Shown piece after piece: positions 37,724-44,380 of a stretch of 64,000 bases of DNA. Location: contig NZ_JAAITU010000002.1 in the NCBI RefSeq assembly GCF_013304385.1, positions 62,001 to 126,000 of the forward strand, given 5' to 3'. The translations under genes and the position numbers were made by a program. Within the stretch, counting starts at the first letter, position 1. Every line of letters starts with the position of its first letter. Source of the DNA: Blautia glucerasea (lineage in GTDB: Bacteria; Bacillota; Clostridia; Lachnospirales; Lachnospiraceae). The notes under the pieces are model-generated. The model was not told where the DNA came from. It did no database searches and saw only the letters and a list, made by a program, of their open reading frames with translations.

Positions 37724-39379
37724 TCAGCGGTTATTGATTGCTGTAACAAGGGCATCAATGGATGCATGGATAATATCCGGATCCACACCTGCACCCCATG
37801 CCATGGTTCCATCCGGCTTCTTGATTCCCACATAGGCAATTGCCTTGGAGCTTGAACTTTTTTCCAATGCATGCTCCTGATATACTTCCAGAGAATACTT
37901 CAGTTCGTATGCTTTCTTTAATGCATTGCTGACAGCATCCAGACGTCCGTTACCAATTGCTTCTGTGATAATCGTCTTTCCTTTGAAGGTTGATGTAACT
38001 CTGGTGGAAATTCCATTTTCTGTCTGCTGGAAATGAACCTCATGAATACTATATGGCTCAACTACATTTTCATAGGTTCTCTTAAACAGTCCGAAGATTT
38101 CATCCGGATGGAGCTCTTTATGCAGATGGTCGGATACAGCTTTGGCTGTATAACCCATAGCCTCACGCATTTTCGGTGGAAGATTCAGACCGTACTTGGT
38201 TTCCAGGATATAACCTACGCCGCCTTTTCCGGACTGGCTGTTAATACGGATAACATCTGCATCATAATTACGTCCCACATCTGTAGGATCAATAGGCAGA
38301 TAAGGCACTGTCCAATGGTTAGGATCTTTTTCCTCGATCCAGTGCATTCCTTTTGCAATGGCATCCTGATGGGATCCGGAGAATGCAGCAAATACAAGTG
38401 CTCCGCTGTATGGGCTTCTTTCATTGATGTGCATTCCTGTACATGCCTCATAGACCTCACATACGTGTGGCATGTCAGAGAAATCAAGCCCCGGATCCAC
38501 ACCCTGGGAATACATATTCATGGCCAATGTAACAATATCCACGTTACCGGTACGCTCTCCATTTCCAAAAAGAGTACCCTCGATTCTGTCTGCCCCTGCC
38601 AGAATACCCATCTCTGTATCCGCCACACCACAGCCTCTGTCATTATGAGGATGAAGGGATACTATCACATTATCTCTGTACTTCATATGTTTACACATAT
38701 ACTCTACCTGACTTGCATATACATGAGGCATTGCCAGTTCTACTGTTACAGGCAGATTGATAATGCATTTATTATCTGGTGTAGGCTGCCATACATCCAG
38801 AACTGCATTGCAGACTTCAAGGGCATATTCCGGCTCTGTGCCGGTAAAGCTTTCCGGGCTGTACTCAAACTGGAAATTGCCTTCTGTTTCATCAGCAAGT
38901 TCTTTTAACAGTCTGGCACCATCTACAGCAATTTTCAGTACCTCTTCTTTTGACTTTTTAAATACCTGTTCCCTCTGTGCAACAGATGTGGAATTGTAAA
39001 CATGTACAATGGCCTTTGGTGCACCTTTCACTGCTTCAAAGGTCTTTCGGATAATATGCTCTCTTGCCTGTGTCAGTACCTGGATGGTTACATCTTCAGG
39101 AATCAGATTCTGATCGATCAGTGTGCGCAGGAAAGTATATTCTGTTTCAGATGCAGCAGGAAATCCTACTTCGATCTCTTTAAAACCAATCTGTACAAGC
39201 AACTTGAAAAACTCCACCTTCTGATCAAGACTCATAGGGATCACCAGCGCCTGGTTGCCATCACGAAGATCTACAGAACACCATGCAGGAGCCTTATCAA
39301 CATACTCCTTTTTCGTCCAATCCAGACATACTTCCGGTGGCATATAATACTGTTTCTGATATTTACCTGGGTTCATCAT
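37724..39379 (-). CDS. leuA: 2-isopropylmalate synthase, LeuA2 type
   Basis: It condenses acetyl-CoA with 2-ketoisovalerate, the first step of leucine synthesis. The start is ATG 39379 (551 residues; a second ATG follows at 39376), with GGAGG 10 nt upstream. The 24 extra residues of the longer frame are encoded by the T-box terminator and are not protein. The catalytic TIM barrel has WCSVDLRDGNQAL and SLHPHNDRGCGVADTEMG. The C-terminal regulatory domain (about 420-551) is where leucine would bind. The ~550-residue length and QYYMPPEVCLDW opening match the second LeuA clade of clostridia and actinobacteria. Confidence 0.95.
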   Translation of the reverse strand: MMNPGKYQKQYYMPPEVCLDWTKKEYVDKAPAWCSVDLRDGNQALVIPMSLDQKVEFFKLLVQIGFKEIEVGFPAASETEYTFLRTLIDQNLIPEDVTIQVLTQAREHIIRKTFEAVKGAPKAIVHVYNSTSVAQREQVFKKSKEEVLKIAVDGARLLKELADETEGNFQFEYSPESFTGTEPEYALEVCNAVLDVWQPTPDNKCIINLPVTVELAMPHVYASQVEYMCKHMKYRDNVIVSLHPHNDRGCGVADTEMGILAGADRIEGTLFGNGERTGNVDIVTLAMNMYSQGVDPGLDFSDMPHVCEVYEACTGMHINERSPYSGALVFAAFSGSHQDAIAKGMHWIEEKDPNHWTVPYLPIDPTDVGRNYDADVIRINSQSGKGGVGYILETKYGLNLPPKMREAMGYTAKAVSDHLHKELHPDEIFGLFKRTYENVVEPYSIHEVHFQQTENGISTRVTSTFKGKTIITEAIGNGRLDAVSNALKKAYELKYSLEVYQEHALEKSSSSKAIAYVGIKKPDGTMAWGAGVDPDIIHASIDALVTAINNR

Positions 39380-39427
39380 CTTATTATTTCCTCCATTTCT
39401 TTTTCTCTTTGTCATTATTAATGAAAC

Positions 39428-39735
39428 AAAAAAATCTTCCATCTTCTGCATTTCTGCAAGAGACGAAAGATCTGATCATCTACGCGGTACCACTCTTATT
39501 TCATGAATAAAATTCATACACTCACTGGATACGGAACGAAAATTCATCCTTATATCCATTCCATGTAACGGTGGATACCGTCTGCTCCTACTCTCCATAA
39601 CACTCTGATATGTATAATAAATGTCAGGCTTTGGGATCAGCTGCTCCGAGGCGAGTTCCATAAATTCCATCCGCTGCTTTCCACCAGCCAGCAGCTCTCT
39701 GTGCTTCGGTTCCTTATGTACTATTCCTCATCTGT
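39428..39735 (-). promoter_or_regulatory. T-box riboswitch, tRNA-Leu responsive, upstream of leuA
   Basis: The T-box core AGAGTGGTACCGCG is at 39483-39496 (minus strand). It is followed by a terminator whose arms (ATCTTTCGTCTCTTGCA with TGCAGAAGATGGAAGAT) run into seven T (39428-39434). In stem I the sequence GGAACTCGCC places CTC, a Leu codon, at 39653-39655, matching leuA. The 5' edge is approximate. Confidence 0.92.
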
Positions 39736-39912: not shown

Positions 39913-41088
39913 TTATTTGCCGGAAAAAGGCTGAAGATGCTGAGGGAGCACCACTTCAAAAATCGTTCCGCCTGACGGATTGTCTTTAACCGTAATGCTT
40001 CCATCATGAGCACGCACGATTTCATGTACCAGTGCAAGGCCAAGCCCTACACCACCCAGTTCACGGCTTCTGGATTTGTCTACGCGGAAAAATGGTTCGA
40101 ACACCCGCTCCTTAAGTTCCCTGGGAATACCACTTCCTGTATCCTCTACCGAAAGATAAACGTTTTTGTCTTTTTGATAAGAGGTGACTGTAACCTGACC
40201 TCCTGAATGGTTATATTTTATTGCATTCTCAACCAGATTATATACCACCCTGTAAATCAGAATATCACTTCCCTGCATATTTGCATTCCTGCAATTTCCA
40301 ATAAGCCGAATATTCTTTTCTATTGCAAGCGGTTCCAGATCTGCGATCACTTCTTCAACAAGTGCATCCACCATGATAATATCATCACGTTCCACACTCT
40401 GAAGCTCACTCATATCCAAAAGGGTCTTGATCATTTTACTTAGTTTTTCATTCTGTTCCATGACCATAGTGATTGTCTGTTCTGTACATTCATCATTATG
40501 TTTATGCTGAGTGGAATGATATAAATCCAGCTGTACCTGCATCAATGATAAAGGTGTGCGAAGCTCATGAGCTGCATTGGCAGTAAATTGTCTCTGCACA
40601 TCAAATGCTTCTGAAAGGCGTTCCAGCATCTTGTTATACGACACACTGATCTGGTTTAACTCCTTAACCTCATTTTCTTCCAGCCTGGAGTCTGACAGAT
40701 TTTGTGCCTGCACTTCTTCCATTTTATCTGCAATTTTTCTTAGTGGTTTTAATGCATGTCCAACTATAAAATATGTAACAACACCGCCAAGAAGTGCCAG
40801 CAGCGTTGAAAACATCAGACTGCTTTTCTTGTAATCAGCTTTGTTATTGTATACCTGAATAGAAAAATCATCAGCAAAATCATTCCATTTATCATCAGGA
40901 ATATTAATATATATTTCATCTGGTTCCTTACCATTACCCTGCTCGCTTTTAGCATCAACTGTATCCTGCAGCAAATCAATATAATATACACCATTCTTAT
41001 AAACAAACAGGGTGAGACATCCGCATATAATTGCAATAAACAGCGTAGTGAGGATCGTAATCCTCCACTGAAGTGACATTTTTCTCAT
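39913..41088 (-). CDS. Sensor histidine kinase
   Basis: The 391-residue membrane kinase has one segment at about 10-28 and a second at about 87-107, enclosing a short ~55-residue extracytoplasmic loop. A HAMP-like linker (HALKPLRKIADKMEEVQAQN) follows. HisKA has AAHELRTPLS with the phosphoacceptor His near residue 174. The ATPase core has NLVENAIKYNHSGG, DTGSGIP and GVGLGLALV. The ATG overlaps the regulator stop by 4 nt. The loop has no obvious sensor fold and no Cys, so the stimulus is unknown. It faces the redox module across the divergent promoter region. Confidence 0.9.
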   Translation of the reverse strand: MRKMSLQWRITILTTLFIAIICGCLTLFVYKNGVYYIDLLQDTVDAKSEQGNGKEPDEIYINIPDDKWNDFADDFSIQVYNNKADYKKSSLMFSTLLALLGGVVTYFIVGHALKPLRKIADKMEEVQAQNLSDSRLEENEVKELNQISVSYNKMLERLSEAFDVQRQFTANAAHELRTPLSLMQVQLDLYHSTQHKHNDECTEQTITMVMEQNEKLSKMIKTLLDMSELQSVERDDIIMVDALVEEVIADLEPLAIEKNIRLIGNCRNANMQGSDILIYRVVYNLVENAIKYNHSGGQVTVTSYQKDKNVYLSVEDTGSGIPRELKERVFEPFFRVDKSRSRELGGVGLGLALVHEIVRAHDGSITVKDNPSGGTIFEVVLPQHLQPFSGK

Positions 41089-41765
41089 CGCTCTGATTCC
41101 TCTCGTATCTTATAGCCTTCACCTACCTTGTTCAGGATCGGATCATAACCAAGCACTGCCTTAAGCTTTTTTCTAAGAGAAGACATGTGCACCCGGATAG
41201 ACCCGCTAAAGCTGTCCACAGACGCATCCCATACATGTTCCATAAGTTCTTCCTGACTGATCGGCCGGCCCTGATTAAGAAGCAGATATTCCAAAATCCC
41301 ATTTTCTTTTCTGGTTAAATGTACTTTTTCTTCTTTTACATAAGCCTCACGCTTCCTGGTATCAAACCGTATATCTCCTGCTTTCAGGCAAATATCTCTT
41401 TGTACAAATCTGCGCCGTGTAAGACTTCTGATACGTGCTTCAAGCTCCTGCAGATGAAAAGGCTTTTCCATATAATCATTGGCCCCTGCATCCAGCCCTT
41501 CCACCTTATCTGCGATCTGGCTCCTTGCAGACAATATAAGAACCTTTGTATCCTCATTTTTCTTTCTGAGTTCTTTTAAAATATCCATGCCATCCATACC
41601 GGGAAGATTCAGATCCAAAACGATCAGATCATAATTCTCTGCCAGAATATAATCAAGCGCCTCTTCCCCATCGTAACAGGTATCCACCTCATATCCTGCA
41701 TCATATAAACTTTTTGCAACAGTGTCGCATAATTTTTTCTCGTCTTCAACAATTAATAATCTCAA
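41085..41765 (-). CDS. OmpR/PhoB-family response regulator
   Basis: I place the start at TTG 41765, with AGGTGG 5 nt upstream. This gives 226 residues beginning MRLLIVEDEKKLCDTVAKSL; the 31 codons of a longer frame would overlap the promoter and are not homologous. The receiver domain has Glu7/Asp8, phosphoacceptor Asp51 (LDLNLPG) and the LSARSQ and KPF motifs. The winged-helix output domain ends HMSSLRKKLKAVLGYDPI and VGEGYKI. It should bind direct repeats near its targets. The kinase gene overlaps its end, and the redox module is divergent. Confidence 0.9.
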   Translation of the reverse strand: MRLLIVEDEKKLCDTVAKSLYDAGYEVDTCYDGEEALDYILAENYDLIVLDLNLPGMDGMDILKELRKKNEDTKVLILSARSQIADKVEGLDAGANDYMEKPFHLQELEARIRSLTRRRFVQRDICLKAGDIRFDTRKREAYVKEEKVHLTRKENGILEYLLLNQGRPISQEELMEHVWDASVDSFSGSIRVHMSSLRKKLKAVLGYDPILNKVGEGYKIREESER

Positions 41766-41804
41766 ATTTTCCACCTGCTTCTTAACAGAAATTTTACAAC
41801 AGTT

Positions 41805-41833
41805 ATTGTATAATACAAACATCAGCTGGTCAA
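41805..41833 (-). promoter_or_regulatory. Promoter of the two-component operon
   Basis: On the minus strand, TTGACC (41828-41833), 17 nt, TACAAT (41805-41810), about 40 nt before the regulator TTG start. Confidence 0.75.
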
Positions 41834-41880
41834 TATATGCAGGAAATGAAAATAGCAACGATTATGCAAGAAAAGAAAAG

Positions 41881-41898
41881 TATGGCATATATGCCATA
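41881..41898. promoter_or_regulatory. 18-bp perfect palindrome, possible operator
   Basis: TATGGCATATATGCCATA is perfectly self-complementary. It lies between the divergent two-component promoter and the CXXC-peptide gene, 48 nt before that gene's start. No T-run follows. It is a plausible site for a dimeric regulator; an OmpR-type regulator would more usually use direct repeats. Confidence 0.5.
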
Positions 41899-41945
41899 AA
41901 TTAAAAAAGTATCATGTCTGCCAAAACGAAAGGAGTAATAAGATT

Positions 41946-42086
41946 TTGAAGTGTAAAAAAATGTCTCAACTTGTTTTACTTATTACAGGCATAGCTATGA
42001 TTAGCTATGGTGCGATCAGAGGCGAAGCCGCCACCGTACTGGGAAAAGCAATAAAATTATGTTTGGAGTGTGTTGGAATTGGATAA
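41946..42086 (+). CDS. Small CXXC-motif membrane peptide (CD1871A-like)
   Basis: The frame from TTG 41946 gives 46 residues: MKCKKMSQLVLLITGIAMIS, then a YGAIRGEAATVLGKAIK stretch, and CLECVGIG at the end (CxxC at residues 39 and 42). AGGAG lies 10 nt before the TTG; ATG 41961 is an alternative start. One membrane segment (residues 8-23) followed by R-G-E and a terminal CLECxGIG fits the small clostridial family that I recall as CD1871A. It overlaps the polyferredoxin gene by 17 nt, so the two are coupled. The CxxC is a candidate thiol relay or cluster ligand. It is below the length at which ORF callers usually report genes. Confidence 0.75.
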   Translation: MKCKKMSQLVLLITGIAMISYGAIRGEAATVLGKAIKLCLECVGIG

Positions 42087-42978
42087 AAAAACGAATTTAC
42101 GATCAAAGAAAATTGCACAGATCCGTGGGTGGATACAGGCAGCGGCCACACTTCTTACCAACATTCACATTCCCAATGTGTTCAAGGGTCAAATATATCA
42201 AGGCAAGGCGAAAACTGTATGCGTTCCAGGATTAAACTGCTATTCCTGTCCTGCTGCCACAGGTGCATGCCCAATTGGTGCATTTCAGGCAGTGGTTGGC
42301 TCATCCAAGTTTAAATTCTCATATTACATAACCGGTTTTTTTATTTTGCTTGGTGTGCTGCTGGGGCGATTTATCTGTGGATTTTTGTGTCCGTTTGGAT
42401 GGTTTCAGGATTTACTTCATAAAATCCCCGGAAAGAAATTATCCACAGCCAGGCTGAAGCCTTTAAGATACCTGAAATATATCATTCTTATTGTTTTCGT
42501 CATACTTCTGCCAATGCTTGTAACGAACTCGATAGGAATGGGAGATCCATTCTTCTGCAAATATATTTGTCCGCAAGGTGTGCTGGAAGGTGCAATACCA
42601 TTGTCATTGGGAAATGCAGCTATACGTTCTGCATTGGGAAATTTATTTACATTCAAGTGTCTTATTTTGATTACCGTAGTTATTTTAAGCATCCTGTTTT
42701 ACAGGCCTTTCTGCAAATGGATATGTCCTCTTGGTGCAGTTTATTCACTGTTTAATAAGGTATCCCTTCTTGGCATTCAGGTGGAAAGCAGCAAATGCGT
42801 GGGATGTAACAAATGTGCAAAAGCATGTAAAATGGACGTGGATGTACGCAAAACACCAAACCATATGGAATGTATCCGGTGCGGAGCCTGCATAAAGGCC
42901 TGTCCCACAGATGCGATCCATTACCAGTTTATGGGGAAAACATGTCCCAAAAAGGACAGCTGCAATAGCCAGCAATAA
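42070..42978 (+). CDS. NapH-like polyferredoxin membrane protein (4Fe-4S binding)
   Basis: The 302-residue protein has about five membrane segments and several Cys clusters. An N-terminal group has Cys51, 57, 60 and 67 (CVPGLNCYSCP, ACP). Membrane-edge pairs CGFLCP (~103), CKYICP (~163) and CKWICP (~215) follow. Two ferredoxin motifs, CVGCNKCAKAC (~243) and CIRCGACIKACP (~268), close it. The repeated CxxxCP pattern is that of NapH/CcoG/RdxA-type electron carriers. GTG 42070 is the called start; TTG 42073 or 42079 are possible, all within the coding region of the CXXC peptide. No quinone- or nitrate-linked genes are nearby, so its partner is probably the thioredoxin-like lipoprotein downstream. 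Confidence 0.88.
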   Translation: MLELDKKTNLRSKKIAQIRGWIQAAATLLTNIHIPNVFKGQIYQGKAKTVCVPGLNCYSCPAATGACPIGAFQAVVGSSKFKFSYYITGFFILLGVLLGRFICGFLCPFGWFQDLLHKIPGKKLSTARLKPLRYLKYIILIVFVILLPMLVTNSIGMGDPFFCKYICPQGVLEGAIPLSLGNAAIRSALGNLFTFKCLILITVVILSILFYRPFCKWICPLGAVYSLFNKVSLLGIQVESSKCVGCNKCAKACKMDVDVRKTPNHMECIRCGACIKACPTDAIHYQFMGKTCPKKDSCNSQQ

Positions 42979-43055
42979 GAAACAGTTACCTGATTAATAC
43001 ATTAATACAGTTATCCAATTAATCTTATTATAATTATTTAAAGGAGTTTATTATC

Positions 43056-44099
43056 ATGAAAGCAAAAAAAGTACTTATCACACTCTTAGCACTTGGCACC
43101 GCATTATCATTTACCGCATGTAACGGAGGAACTACGGAAAAGGAAACTGCAAAAACCGAATCCGCTAAAACTGAATCTTCCAAAACTGAAACCACTAATA
43201 CAGAAACCACGGAAGCAGATAAAACAGAAACTGTAAAAGCAGACACAGAAAATACTGAAACAGAAAATACAGGATCAGATACCGCCCAAATTACTTATGA
43301 AGAGACTGACACTGATCCATCTGACAATACTTCAGATTCAGAGCTTGACAATTTGTATCAGCAGGAAAACCAGCTTTTTGCAGACCACAAAGATGCATGG
43401 GACAAAGCTTTTGGTCTGATGAGTAAAAGCTCTGCCGATTCAAGTGGAAATTACGCAGATTTTCTTTCTGATACAGTTGAATCAAACAAGGATTCTTTTA
43501 CAGATGAGCAGTATCAAACCCTTACAGATGATATTGAAACCATACGAAAAATTGAAGAACAGATTGCAGAACTTGAAAAGAAAAATGCAGAAACAGACAC
43601 TTCAGAAACAAAAACTGCGTCAGATGATTCCTCTCCTTTTAATAACTTTTCCGGAAAAGATTTCGATGGAAATTCAGTTGATGAAAGTCTGTTTTCCAAG
43701 AATGCAGTAACAGTTGTTAATTTCTGGTTTACCGGGTGCAAACCTTGCGTAGCTGAATTATCCAAGCTTAACGAATTAAATGATGCCATCAAATCCATGG
43801 GGGGAGAAGTAGTAGGCATCAACACAGAGACTTTTGATGGGAATGAAGATGCGATCAAAGAAGCAGCTTCGATTCTTGAAAGTCAGGGTGCAAAATACCG
43901 CAATCTTTCCATAGACTCTGATTCTGATGCAGGAAAATACGCCTCAAATATTATGGCATTTCCCACAACAATTTTAGTAGATCGAAATGGGAATATTGTA
44001 GGAGATCCTATGCTGGGCGGAATTGACAACCAGGACAATTACGATGCTCTGATGAAACAGATTCAATCTGTAATTGATGCTGATAGCACAGAGAAATAA
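43056..44099 (+). CDS. Thioredoxin-fold (TlpA/ResA-like) lipoprotein
   Basis: The 347-residue protein begins with a lipoprotein signal ending FTAC, with Cys22 as the lipidation site. A Thr/Glu/Lys/Ser-rich tether runs to about residue 85, then a helical stretch with DEQYQTLTDDIETIRKIEEQ. The C-terminal ~150 residues form an AhpC/TlpA thioredoxin domain: VVNFWFTGCKPC has the active-site Cys228 and Cys231, and FPTTILVD is the cis-Pro region. It acts outside the membrane, and the tether lets it reach through the wall. It follows the polyferredoxin gene after 77 nt, with AAAGGAG at the ATG. A thiol-disulfide reductase receiving electrons from the membrane protein is the likely role. Confidence 0.88.
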   Translation: MKAKKVLITLLALGTALSFTACNGGTTEKETAKTESAKTESSKTETTNTETTEADKTETVKADTENTETENTGSDTAQITYEETDTDPSDNTSDSELDNLYQQENQLFADHKDAWDKAFGLMSKSSADSSGNYADFLSDTVESNKDSFTDEQYQTLTDDIETIRKIEEQIAELEKKNAETDTSETKTASDDSSPFNNFSGKDFDGNSVDESLFSKNAVTVVNFWFTGCKPCVAELSKLNELNDAIKSMGGEVVGINTETFDGNEDAIKEAASILESQGAKYRNLSIDSDSDAGKYASNIMAFPTTILVDRNGNIVGDPMLGGIDNQDNYDALMKQIQSVIDADSTEK

Positions 44100-44112
44100 A
44101 TTTCACAAAAAC

Positions 44113-44162
44113 GTTTACAGTCTGAAAGCCACCCACGAACGGGTGGCTTTCAGACTGTAAAC
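44113..44162. terminator. 22-bp perfect inverted repeat after the lipoprotein gene
   Basis: Two 22-nt arms (44113-44134 and 44141-44162) pair perfectly around ACGAAC. The core is GAAAGCCACCC/GGGTGGCTTTC. It begins 14 nt after the stop codon. No T-run follows on the plus strand, although part of the 3' arm contains TTT, so termination is likely but not certain. Confidence 0.65.
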
Positions 44163-44306: not shown

Positions 44307-44380
44307 TCGGGGCAACAGGATTTGAACCTGCGACCTCACGGCCCCCAGCCGTGCGCGCTACCAAGCTACGCCATACCCCG
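44307..44380 (-). tRNA. tRNA-Pro (anticodon GGG)
   Basis: The 74-nt cloverleaf includes the discriminator A and has no encoded CCA. The acceptor CGGGGTA pairs with TGCCCCG, and the D-arm contains TTGGTAGCGC. The anticodon stem CACGG/CCGTG encloses loop CTGGGGG, whose positions 34-36 are GGG (reads CCC and CCU). The T-arm has GGTTCAAATCC. Confidence 0.95.

Follow-up and report, generated by a model that had tools for sequence, protein, structure and literature searches.

In this work, we analysed a 64,000-nucleotide stretch of the Blautia glucerasea genome (assembly GCF_013304385.1, contig NZ_JAAITU010000002.1, positions 62,001 to 126,000; hereafter, the window) and a module of three plus-strand genes within it, which encode a 46-aa single-pass peptide with a CxxC motif (41946..42086), a 302-aa NapH-like membrane polyferredoxin (42070..42978) and a 347-aa TlpA/ResA-like thioredoxin lipoprotein (43056..44099). 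The best explanation for this module, to which we assign a probability of about 0.7, is that it forms a transmembrane ferredoxin-to-thioredoxin reductant, which would do the job of CcdA/DsbD with unrelated parts. Such a CcdA/DsbD-like function is suggested by the linkage of the genes, the topology of natural fusions, a selenocysteine (Sec) form of the thioredoxin and an MsrAB neighbour. The three genes had been recognized in an initial annotation made from the sequence alone, and they are present at those coordinates, with matches to NF040920, PF12801 and Redoxin/AhpC-TSA, respectively.

In the proposed relay, cytosolic low-potential carriers, most likely ferredoxin, would donate electrons to the 2[4Fe-4S] domain of the NapH-like protein, from which they would pass to an inner-face cluster (Cys 103, 107, 215 and 219) and then to an outer-face cluster (Cys 57, 60, 67 and 167). 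The outer cluster would turn one-electron transfer into dithiol chemistry on the C-terminal CxxC of the peptide, as in ferredoxin:thioredoxin reductase, and the peptide would reduce the active-site CxxC or UxxC of the TlpA-like lipoprotein. The reduced lipoprotein would act on clients at the cell surface; in one clade, the client would be an MsrAB lipoprotein. We infer both the direction of the electrons and ferredoxin as their donor, and the peptide CxxC is the likely redox step between the outer cluster and the thioredoxin. A relay of this kind had been put forward in the initial annotation; the conserved linkage, the lack of a universal CcdA and the fusions, which indicate the sides of the membrane, speak for it, with the peptide CxxC as a presumed carrier.

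Conservation of the three-gene linkage

The peptide was found with NF040920 in 40 of the 299 genomes of the phylum that were surveyed. We compared all peptide loci other than the source genome's own (39 loci) and 80 NapH-found loci, which were the best among the 228 confirmed in named genomes, counting genes by simple open reading frame (ORF) calling and considering, outside the module, neighbours of at least 90 aa. A NapH-like gene lies on the same strand in 39 of the 39 peptide-found loci, within 0.3 kb in 37 of them (0.7 kb in L066 and 2.1 kb in L052), and a thioredoxin gene is adjacent in 31. Among the NapH-found loci, the peptide is present in 80/80 and the thioredoxin in 79/80, so that the linkage seen in the window is conserved in both sets.

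The subfamily is well delimited, since a NapH profile (A1) gave 46 matches of at least 285 bits across the 299 genomes and the next match at 121 bits. The peptide accompanies 44 of these 46 loci, including four missed at the NF040920 threshold. The two peptide-less loci (L154 and L155) each represent a second NapH copy in their genome, the two genomes being of one genus and the surroundings near-identical. In the midpoint-rooted tree, which includes 8 of the 80 NapH-found loci but not L059 (truncated at a contig end), they lie on a long branch among peptide-bearing rows. Pfam identified at L154 FMN_bind, ApbE, NusG_II and three molybdopterin-oxidoreductase-fold proteins (one below its cut-off). 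In this one case found, the peptide is absent where the exit seems to be taken over by a flavinylated-type carrier. L154 may represent a flavin version of the NapH-subfamily wire. None of the five window proteins scanned by Pfam matched FMN_bind, the domain that would mark a flavinylated NapH-like system.

Cysteines of the NapH-like protein and the peptide

The NapH-like protein belongs to the NapH-like superfamily, with 78.1 bits to PF12801 (Fer4_5; gathering cut-off, 22) and a Fer4 domain above its cut-off, and it falls well short of both NapH/MauN TIGR02163 (66.8 bits; cut-off, 213) and quinol dehydrogenase NapH NF007013 (55 vs 234). It contains the inner CxxxCP motifs, with the invariant C103, C107, C215 and C219, and the C-terminal Fer4. 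An alignment of 47 rows revealed 16 invariant cysteines; in 120 rows, eight of them are found in 120 and the other eight in 119, the odd row being cut by a contig end. Judged by hydropathy and charge, with the loop 104–137 holding most of the lysine and arginine residues, they comprise an outer set (57/60/67/167), an inner set (103/107/215/219) and eight cysteines in a cytosolic 2[4Fe-4S] ferredoxin domain. These 16 residues would be enough for four [4Fe-4S] clusters, which the protein presumably binds. In 16 other NapH-like proteins, picked from matches outside the subfamily and including one from the source genome, the inner four and the eight ferredoxin cysteines are kept in 16/16, while C57, C60 or C167 occurs in 0/16 and C67 in 9/16. 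The outer cysteine set thus goes with the peptide-carrying NapH subfamily.

The peptide gene starts with TTG, with AAAGGAG at 41929, and its ORF overlaps that of the NapH-like protein by 17 nt. The product has one hydrophobic segment (residues 6–24) followed by a second helix ending in C39-LE-C42-VGIG, so the earlier description of a 46-residue one-pass peptide that ends in CLECVGIG and overlaps the gene of an Fe-S membrane protein was right on each count. AlphaFold2 predicted helices at 2–25 and 27–43, with the CxxC ending the second (predicted local distance difference test score, pLDDT, 82; predicted template modelling score, pTM, 0.39), and C..C.G lies at or near the C-terminus in 120/120 peptides. 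The peptide scored 67.3 bits against NF040920 (CD1871A family CXXC motif-containing protein; cut-off, 32) and matched no Pfam family. Although it was said to be easily missed by gene callers, it has not been wholly overlooked, as NCBI already holds this named family. We take the CD1871A name to refer to a gene in the Clostridioides difficile transposon CTn5. The NCBIfam entry gives a name only and states no function, and we found no paper under the family name in the open-licence literature. The number CD1871 lies within the range of CTn5, CD1845–CD1878a (PMC3158075). One peptide gene (L116, 1137–1499) has an internal tandem duplication, the first copy of which lacks the CxxC.

Natural fusions and membrane sidedness

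Eight further loci were picked mostly for odd open frames; seven carry the module, and one, L218 of the relative G341, with a weak peptide match (E 5.5e-4), is without it. In four loci of the window's genus (L213, L214, L215 and L217), a single open frame encodes the NapH part, the ferredoxin domain, an extra transmembrane helix, an acidic linker and the thioredoxin. The extra helix has basic residues ahead of it, and this layout would place the ferredoxin domain inside and the thioredoxin outside. The membrane topology of the module that we infer is supported by these fusions and by charge bias. The CxxC peptide remains a separate gene in 4/4 fusion loci, its open frame overlapping that of the fusion. 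The peptides of L213–L215 have an extra N-terminal membrane-like part of about 100–200 aa, with no Pfam match in the two that were scanned (L213 and L214).

Cysteine and selenocysteine forms of the thioredoxin

The lipoprotein has a Redoxin/AhpC-TSA fold (46.2 and 47.5 bits, both above the cut-offs), a lipobox cysteine at residue 22 and a CKPC motif at 228–231, bearing out the earlier call of a tethered TlpA-like lipoprotein with CKPC. By fold, CxxC and export signal, it is of the TlpA/ResA type, and ResA, TlpA and further members of the thioredoxin family are among the solved structures nearest to it in sequence; with 50 bits against a cut-off of 170, it lies outside the ResA family NF002854. 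The stretch that links the lipid anchor to the thioredoxin domain (residues ~90–180) is, by eye, common to relatives and has no Pfam match. Of the 31 adjacent thioredoxins, 19 match a lipobox pattern; most of the others show, by eye, an N-terminal hydrophobic stretch.

The 39 peptide-found loci fall into three groups: 19 with a Cys-type thioredoxin, 12 whose thioredoxin has an in-frame TGA in place of the first active-site Cys codon, and 8 lacking an adjacent thioredoxin. The TGA (loci L039, L041–L043, L046, L047 and L049–L054), at which ordinary ORF calling splits each gene, probably encodes Sec. SelB was detected above the cut-off in 11 of the 12 TGA-type genomes and in 14 of the 28 others (Fisher p = 0.015). 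The hairpin GCTGCAGTTGCAGC begins 23 nt from the T of the TGA and is identical in 9 of the 12 loci; in two more, it has one change with the stem kept as a G-U pair, and L039 is without it. Leucine codons within the hairpin are nearly fixed, whereas the next leucine codons outside vary. In total, 11 of the 12 loci carry this hairpin, which resembles a bacterial selenocysteine insertion sequence (bSECIS). Label changes between Sec and Cys occurred at least twice on the tree. A Sec at the first active-site position suggests a reductase. Five loci (L056, L058, L062, L064 and L066) form a clade with a peptide ending in CLSCIGIQ and a NapH gene, with no thioredoxin nearby.

These data bear on the role of the peptide. 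The relay might hold with a purely structural peptide, whose CxxC would ligate or shield a NapH cluster without cycling, the NapH-like protein reducing the thioredoxin directly. The CxxC is never Sec among the 120 peptides, although the partner thioredoxin is of the Sec type in 12 of 31 loci, and the peptide keeps with NapH even at the 8 of 39 loci without an adjacent thioredoxin. Furthermore, NapH C51 and C163 vary (kept in 106/120 and 115/120), which leaves room for another ligand count on the outer face. On the other hand, the four invariant outer NapH cysteines already suffice for one [4Fe-4S] cluster, and the peptide is missing where, in one genus, a flavinylated-type protein replaces the thioredoxin. 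We regard a structural peptide as possible and, on balance, unlikely.

CcdA, MsrAB and the direction of electron flow

Thioredoxins outside the cytoplasm depend on a supply of reductant, for which CcdA and DsbD are the textbook routes. None of the three module proteins matched PF02683 (CcdA/DsbD), so the claim that no CcdA/DsbD is present stands for the module; it fails for the genome, in which one such gene lies elsewhere. In 25 of the 40 peptide genomes, no PF02683 match was found, which implies that the module does not need CcdA and contradicts the notion of a ccdA homologue that is always present. It could nevertheless be argued that the CcdA of the source genome reduces the thioredoxin, with NapH and the peptide serving another acceptor and the linkage reflecting regulation or transfer only, since 15 of the 40 peptide genomes (one weakly) have a PF02683 gene as well. 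The 25 genomes without a match argue against this, as do the fusion of NapH and thioredoxin in four genomes and the surroundings of the source-genome CcdA, which, by eye, has shikimate-kinase-like and Rrf2-like genes as neighbours and for which the 3.6 kb examined yielded no thioredoxin. Hence, we consider it improbable. Six of the thioredoxins found next to CcdA in 39 CcdA loci cluster with two from the module (support 84/77), a comparison biased by the use of the module's own profile to find them. A CcdA/NapH partner swap for one thioredoxin lineage was not adopted, since the support is weak and a single origin is possible.

Some loci of the wider clade to which the window belongs carry, directly after tlpA and on its strand, a gene for an MsrAB lipoprotein. 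It is full-length in L101, L104, L106, L109, L120 and L135 (PF01625 and PF01641 confirmed by Pfam in L135) and cut by the contig end in L140; L099, L128 and L139 hold remnants, and the L123 copy lies 3.8 kb away on the opposite strand. We count these neighbours as few evolutionary events, and no MsrAB was found in the 39 peptide-found loci. In the window's genus, the peptide occurs in 21/37 genomes and an MsrA match in 3/37 (two partial). Methionine-sulfoxide repair, one of the functions initially envisaged along with peroxide defence and wall-disulfide reduction, is thus backed by the adjacent gene in one clade and was rejected for the window's organism, whose genome has no MsrA or MsrB match.

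The MsrAB neighbour also bears on the direction of flow. TlpA/ResA-type proteins are reductases. A reversed, inward flow, in which the lipoprotein and peptide would collect outside electrons and NapH would pass them to cytosolic acceptors, as alcohol-oxidase-linked NapH-like proteins may, is very improbable: NapH-like proteins have been proposed either to give electrons to reductases or to take them from oxidases (PMC8238504), but the Sec of the thioredoxin, the MsrAB neighbour and the reductase nature of this protein type all point to reduction outside.

Several observations weigh against a ferredoxin-to-thioredoxin reductant. Eight of the 39 peptide loci have no adjacent thioredoxin, and the 12 TGA loci are not 12 independent cases because near relatives are included. 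The source genome has a PF02683 gene, on another contig, and lacks any match to MsrA or MsrB. The negative association between the peptide and PF02683 (15/40 genomes, one weakly, vs 194/259 others; p = 9e-6) is gone within families (odds ratio 0.88, z -0.26; 14 families having both kinds of genome), and it was dropped as evidence of replacement. The charge difference across the peptide is modest, at +2.2 net on its N side and +0.5 on its C side, with about equal lysine plus arginine counts; the first NapH helix is below the hydropathy threshold, and the AlphaFold2 model of the NapH-like protein, built with 38 close homologues, had a mean pLDDT of 49 and was not used.

Regulation and mobility of the cassette

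Divergent from the module lie genes for an OmpR-type response regulator (41085..41858, minus strand; domain match from TTG 41765, the likely start) and its partner histidine kinase (39913..41088, minus strand). Such a divergent two-component pair is present in 73 of the 81 loci of the window's clade (the 80 and the window). The motif TTAACAnnnnnTTTA, located in the intergenic region at 41782..41796 and a possible response-regulator site, is also found upstream in 73 of the 81, compared with 0.3% of shuffled sequences; these counts are not independent because the loci are related. By eye, the sensor segment of the kinase has no Cys pair. Compared with its near relatives, the window has, by eye, some 80–100 bp of additional sequence separating the start of the peptide from the conserved TATAAT box (41815–41930). 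This extra sequence contains a perfect palindrome (41881–41898), which was dropped as an operator candidate because the other 80 loci do not show it among their best inverted repeats. A strong inverted repeat of 20 pairs after tlpA (44114..44161) may be a terminator, the T-run in the scan being on the minus-strand side.

The cassette (39913–44161) sits between leuA (37724–39451) and tRNA-Pro (44307–44380) plus leuD/leuC, an apparent island within branched-chain amino-acid genes. We compared 11 locus pairs for shared blocks. Five pairs join genera with different names (L102/L106, L102/L109, L102/L128, L073/L074 and L092/L093), and in these the kinase, regulator and module form a block of 4.045–4.058 kb with 97–99% identity. 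Its flanks are mosaic, and further shared segments lie in the vicinity. The remaining pairs share a longer stretch (up to 11.7 kb) or one of lower identity (82–94%). These comparisons point to the module and its two-component genes as a horizontally spread cassette of about 4 kb. A plasmid search returned one NapH match (E 1e-20, 49% identity), on an 809 kb replicon, and viral contigs gave none.

Relation to known systems and significance

CcdA/DsbD systems perform the same job as that proposed here, as a membrane-crossing reductant for an outside thioredoxin, and keep similar company: a two-component system, a thioredoxin and, in part of one module clade, MsrAB. In Fusobacterium nucleatum, the gene order is ccdA-trx-msrAB-modRS (PMC9239216), and in Streptococcus gordonii, the thioredoxin lipoproteins SdbB and Sgo_1177, together with CcdA1/2, maintain the activity of MsrAB (PMC7034828). 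By analogy, the MsrAB-bearing cassette looks like the F. nucleatum arrangement with CcdA exchanged. The module differs in having no PF02683 protein, its transmembrane part being an Fe-S protein and a 46-aa peptide, and in its likely donor, ferredoxin rather than cytosolic thioredoxin.

NapH/MauN and flavinylated NapH-like systems, the latter pairing NapH-like with flavin mononucleotide (FMN) proteins (PMC8238504), share with the module the PF12801 core, the inner CxxxCP motifs and the C-terminal 2[4Fe-4S] domain. The module adds the outer Cys 57/60/167, seen in none of the 16 other NapH-like proteins compared, and the known systems differ in their partner, an FMN-binding protein or quinol dehydrogenase instead of a thioredoxin and CxxC peptide.

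Ferredoxin:thioredoxin reductase is a soluble enzyme of plastids and cyanobacteria. The chemistry proposed is the same, with a [4Fe-4S] cluster by a disulfide turning single electrons into dithiols, but the module is membrane-bound and, as judged by family matches, unrelated in sequence: the catalytic-subunit family of the enzyme is absent from the module's Pfam hits and NCBIfam rows (best 25 of 37, for the NapH-like protein).

A preprint of November 2025 (PMC12637426) reported a previously uncharacterised 4Fe-4S/TlpA/CxxC operon of gut Clostridia that predicts immunotherapy side effects and that, by its description, matches the present three-gene module. Its authors suggested a role in redox homeostasis with reduction of extracellular or surface targets; the available part of the text contains no electron route, conserved-cysteine analysis, Sec form, fusion, MsrAB partner or CcdA comparison. 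A 2026 selenoprotein review (PMC13188914) includes Sec forms of TlpA-like families, and a paper on thioredoxin systems of Clostridia, including a ferredoxin-dependent TrxB, does not mention the module in the part available (PMC10880999). Judged by titles and abstract openings, the proposed mechanism was not found in the open-licence literature.

We lean towards the broader view that the module represents a hitherto undescribed class of membrane-spanning thiol reductase, in which a four-cluster Fe-S wire and a free CxxC micro-protein would act as a ferredoxin:thioredoxin reductase across the membrane, replacing CcdA/DsbD in many anaerobes, feeding Cys or Sec surface thioredoxins and sometimes a surface methionine-sulfoxide reductase, and spreading as a regulated cassette of ~4 kb. 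How surface thioredoxins are powered in 25 of the 40 module genomes was open because these have no PF02683 match. The module offers a concrete answer, tying ferredoxin, a main low-potential carrier of anaerobes, to surface thiol chemistry, and is a possible substitute for the CcdA/DsbD route in gut bacteria. Such a relay would explain both a named peptide family without a function and an operon linked to the side effects of immunotherapy.

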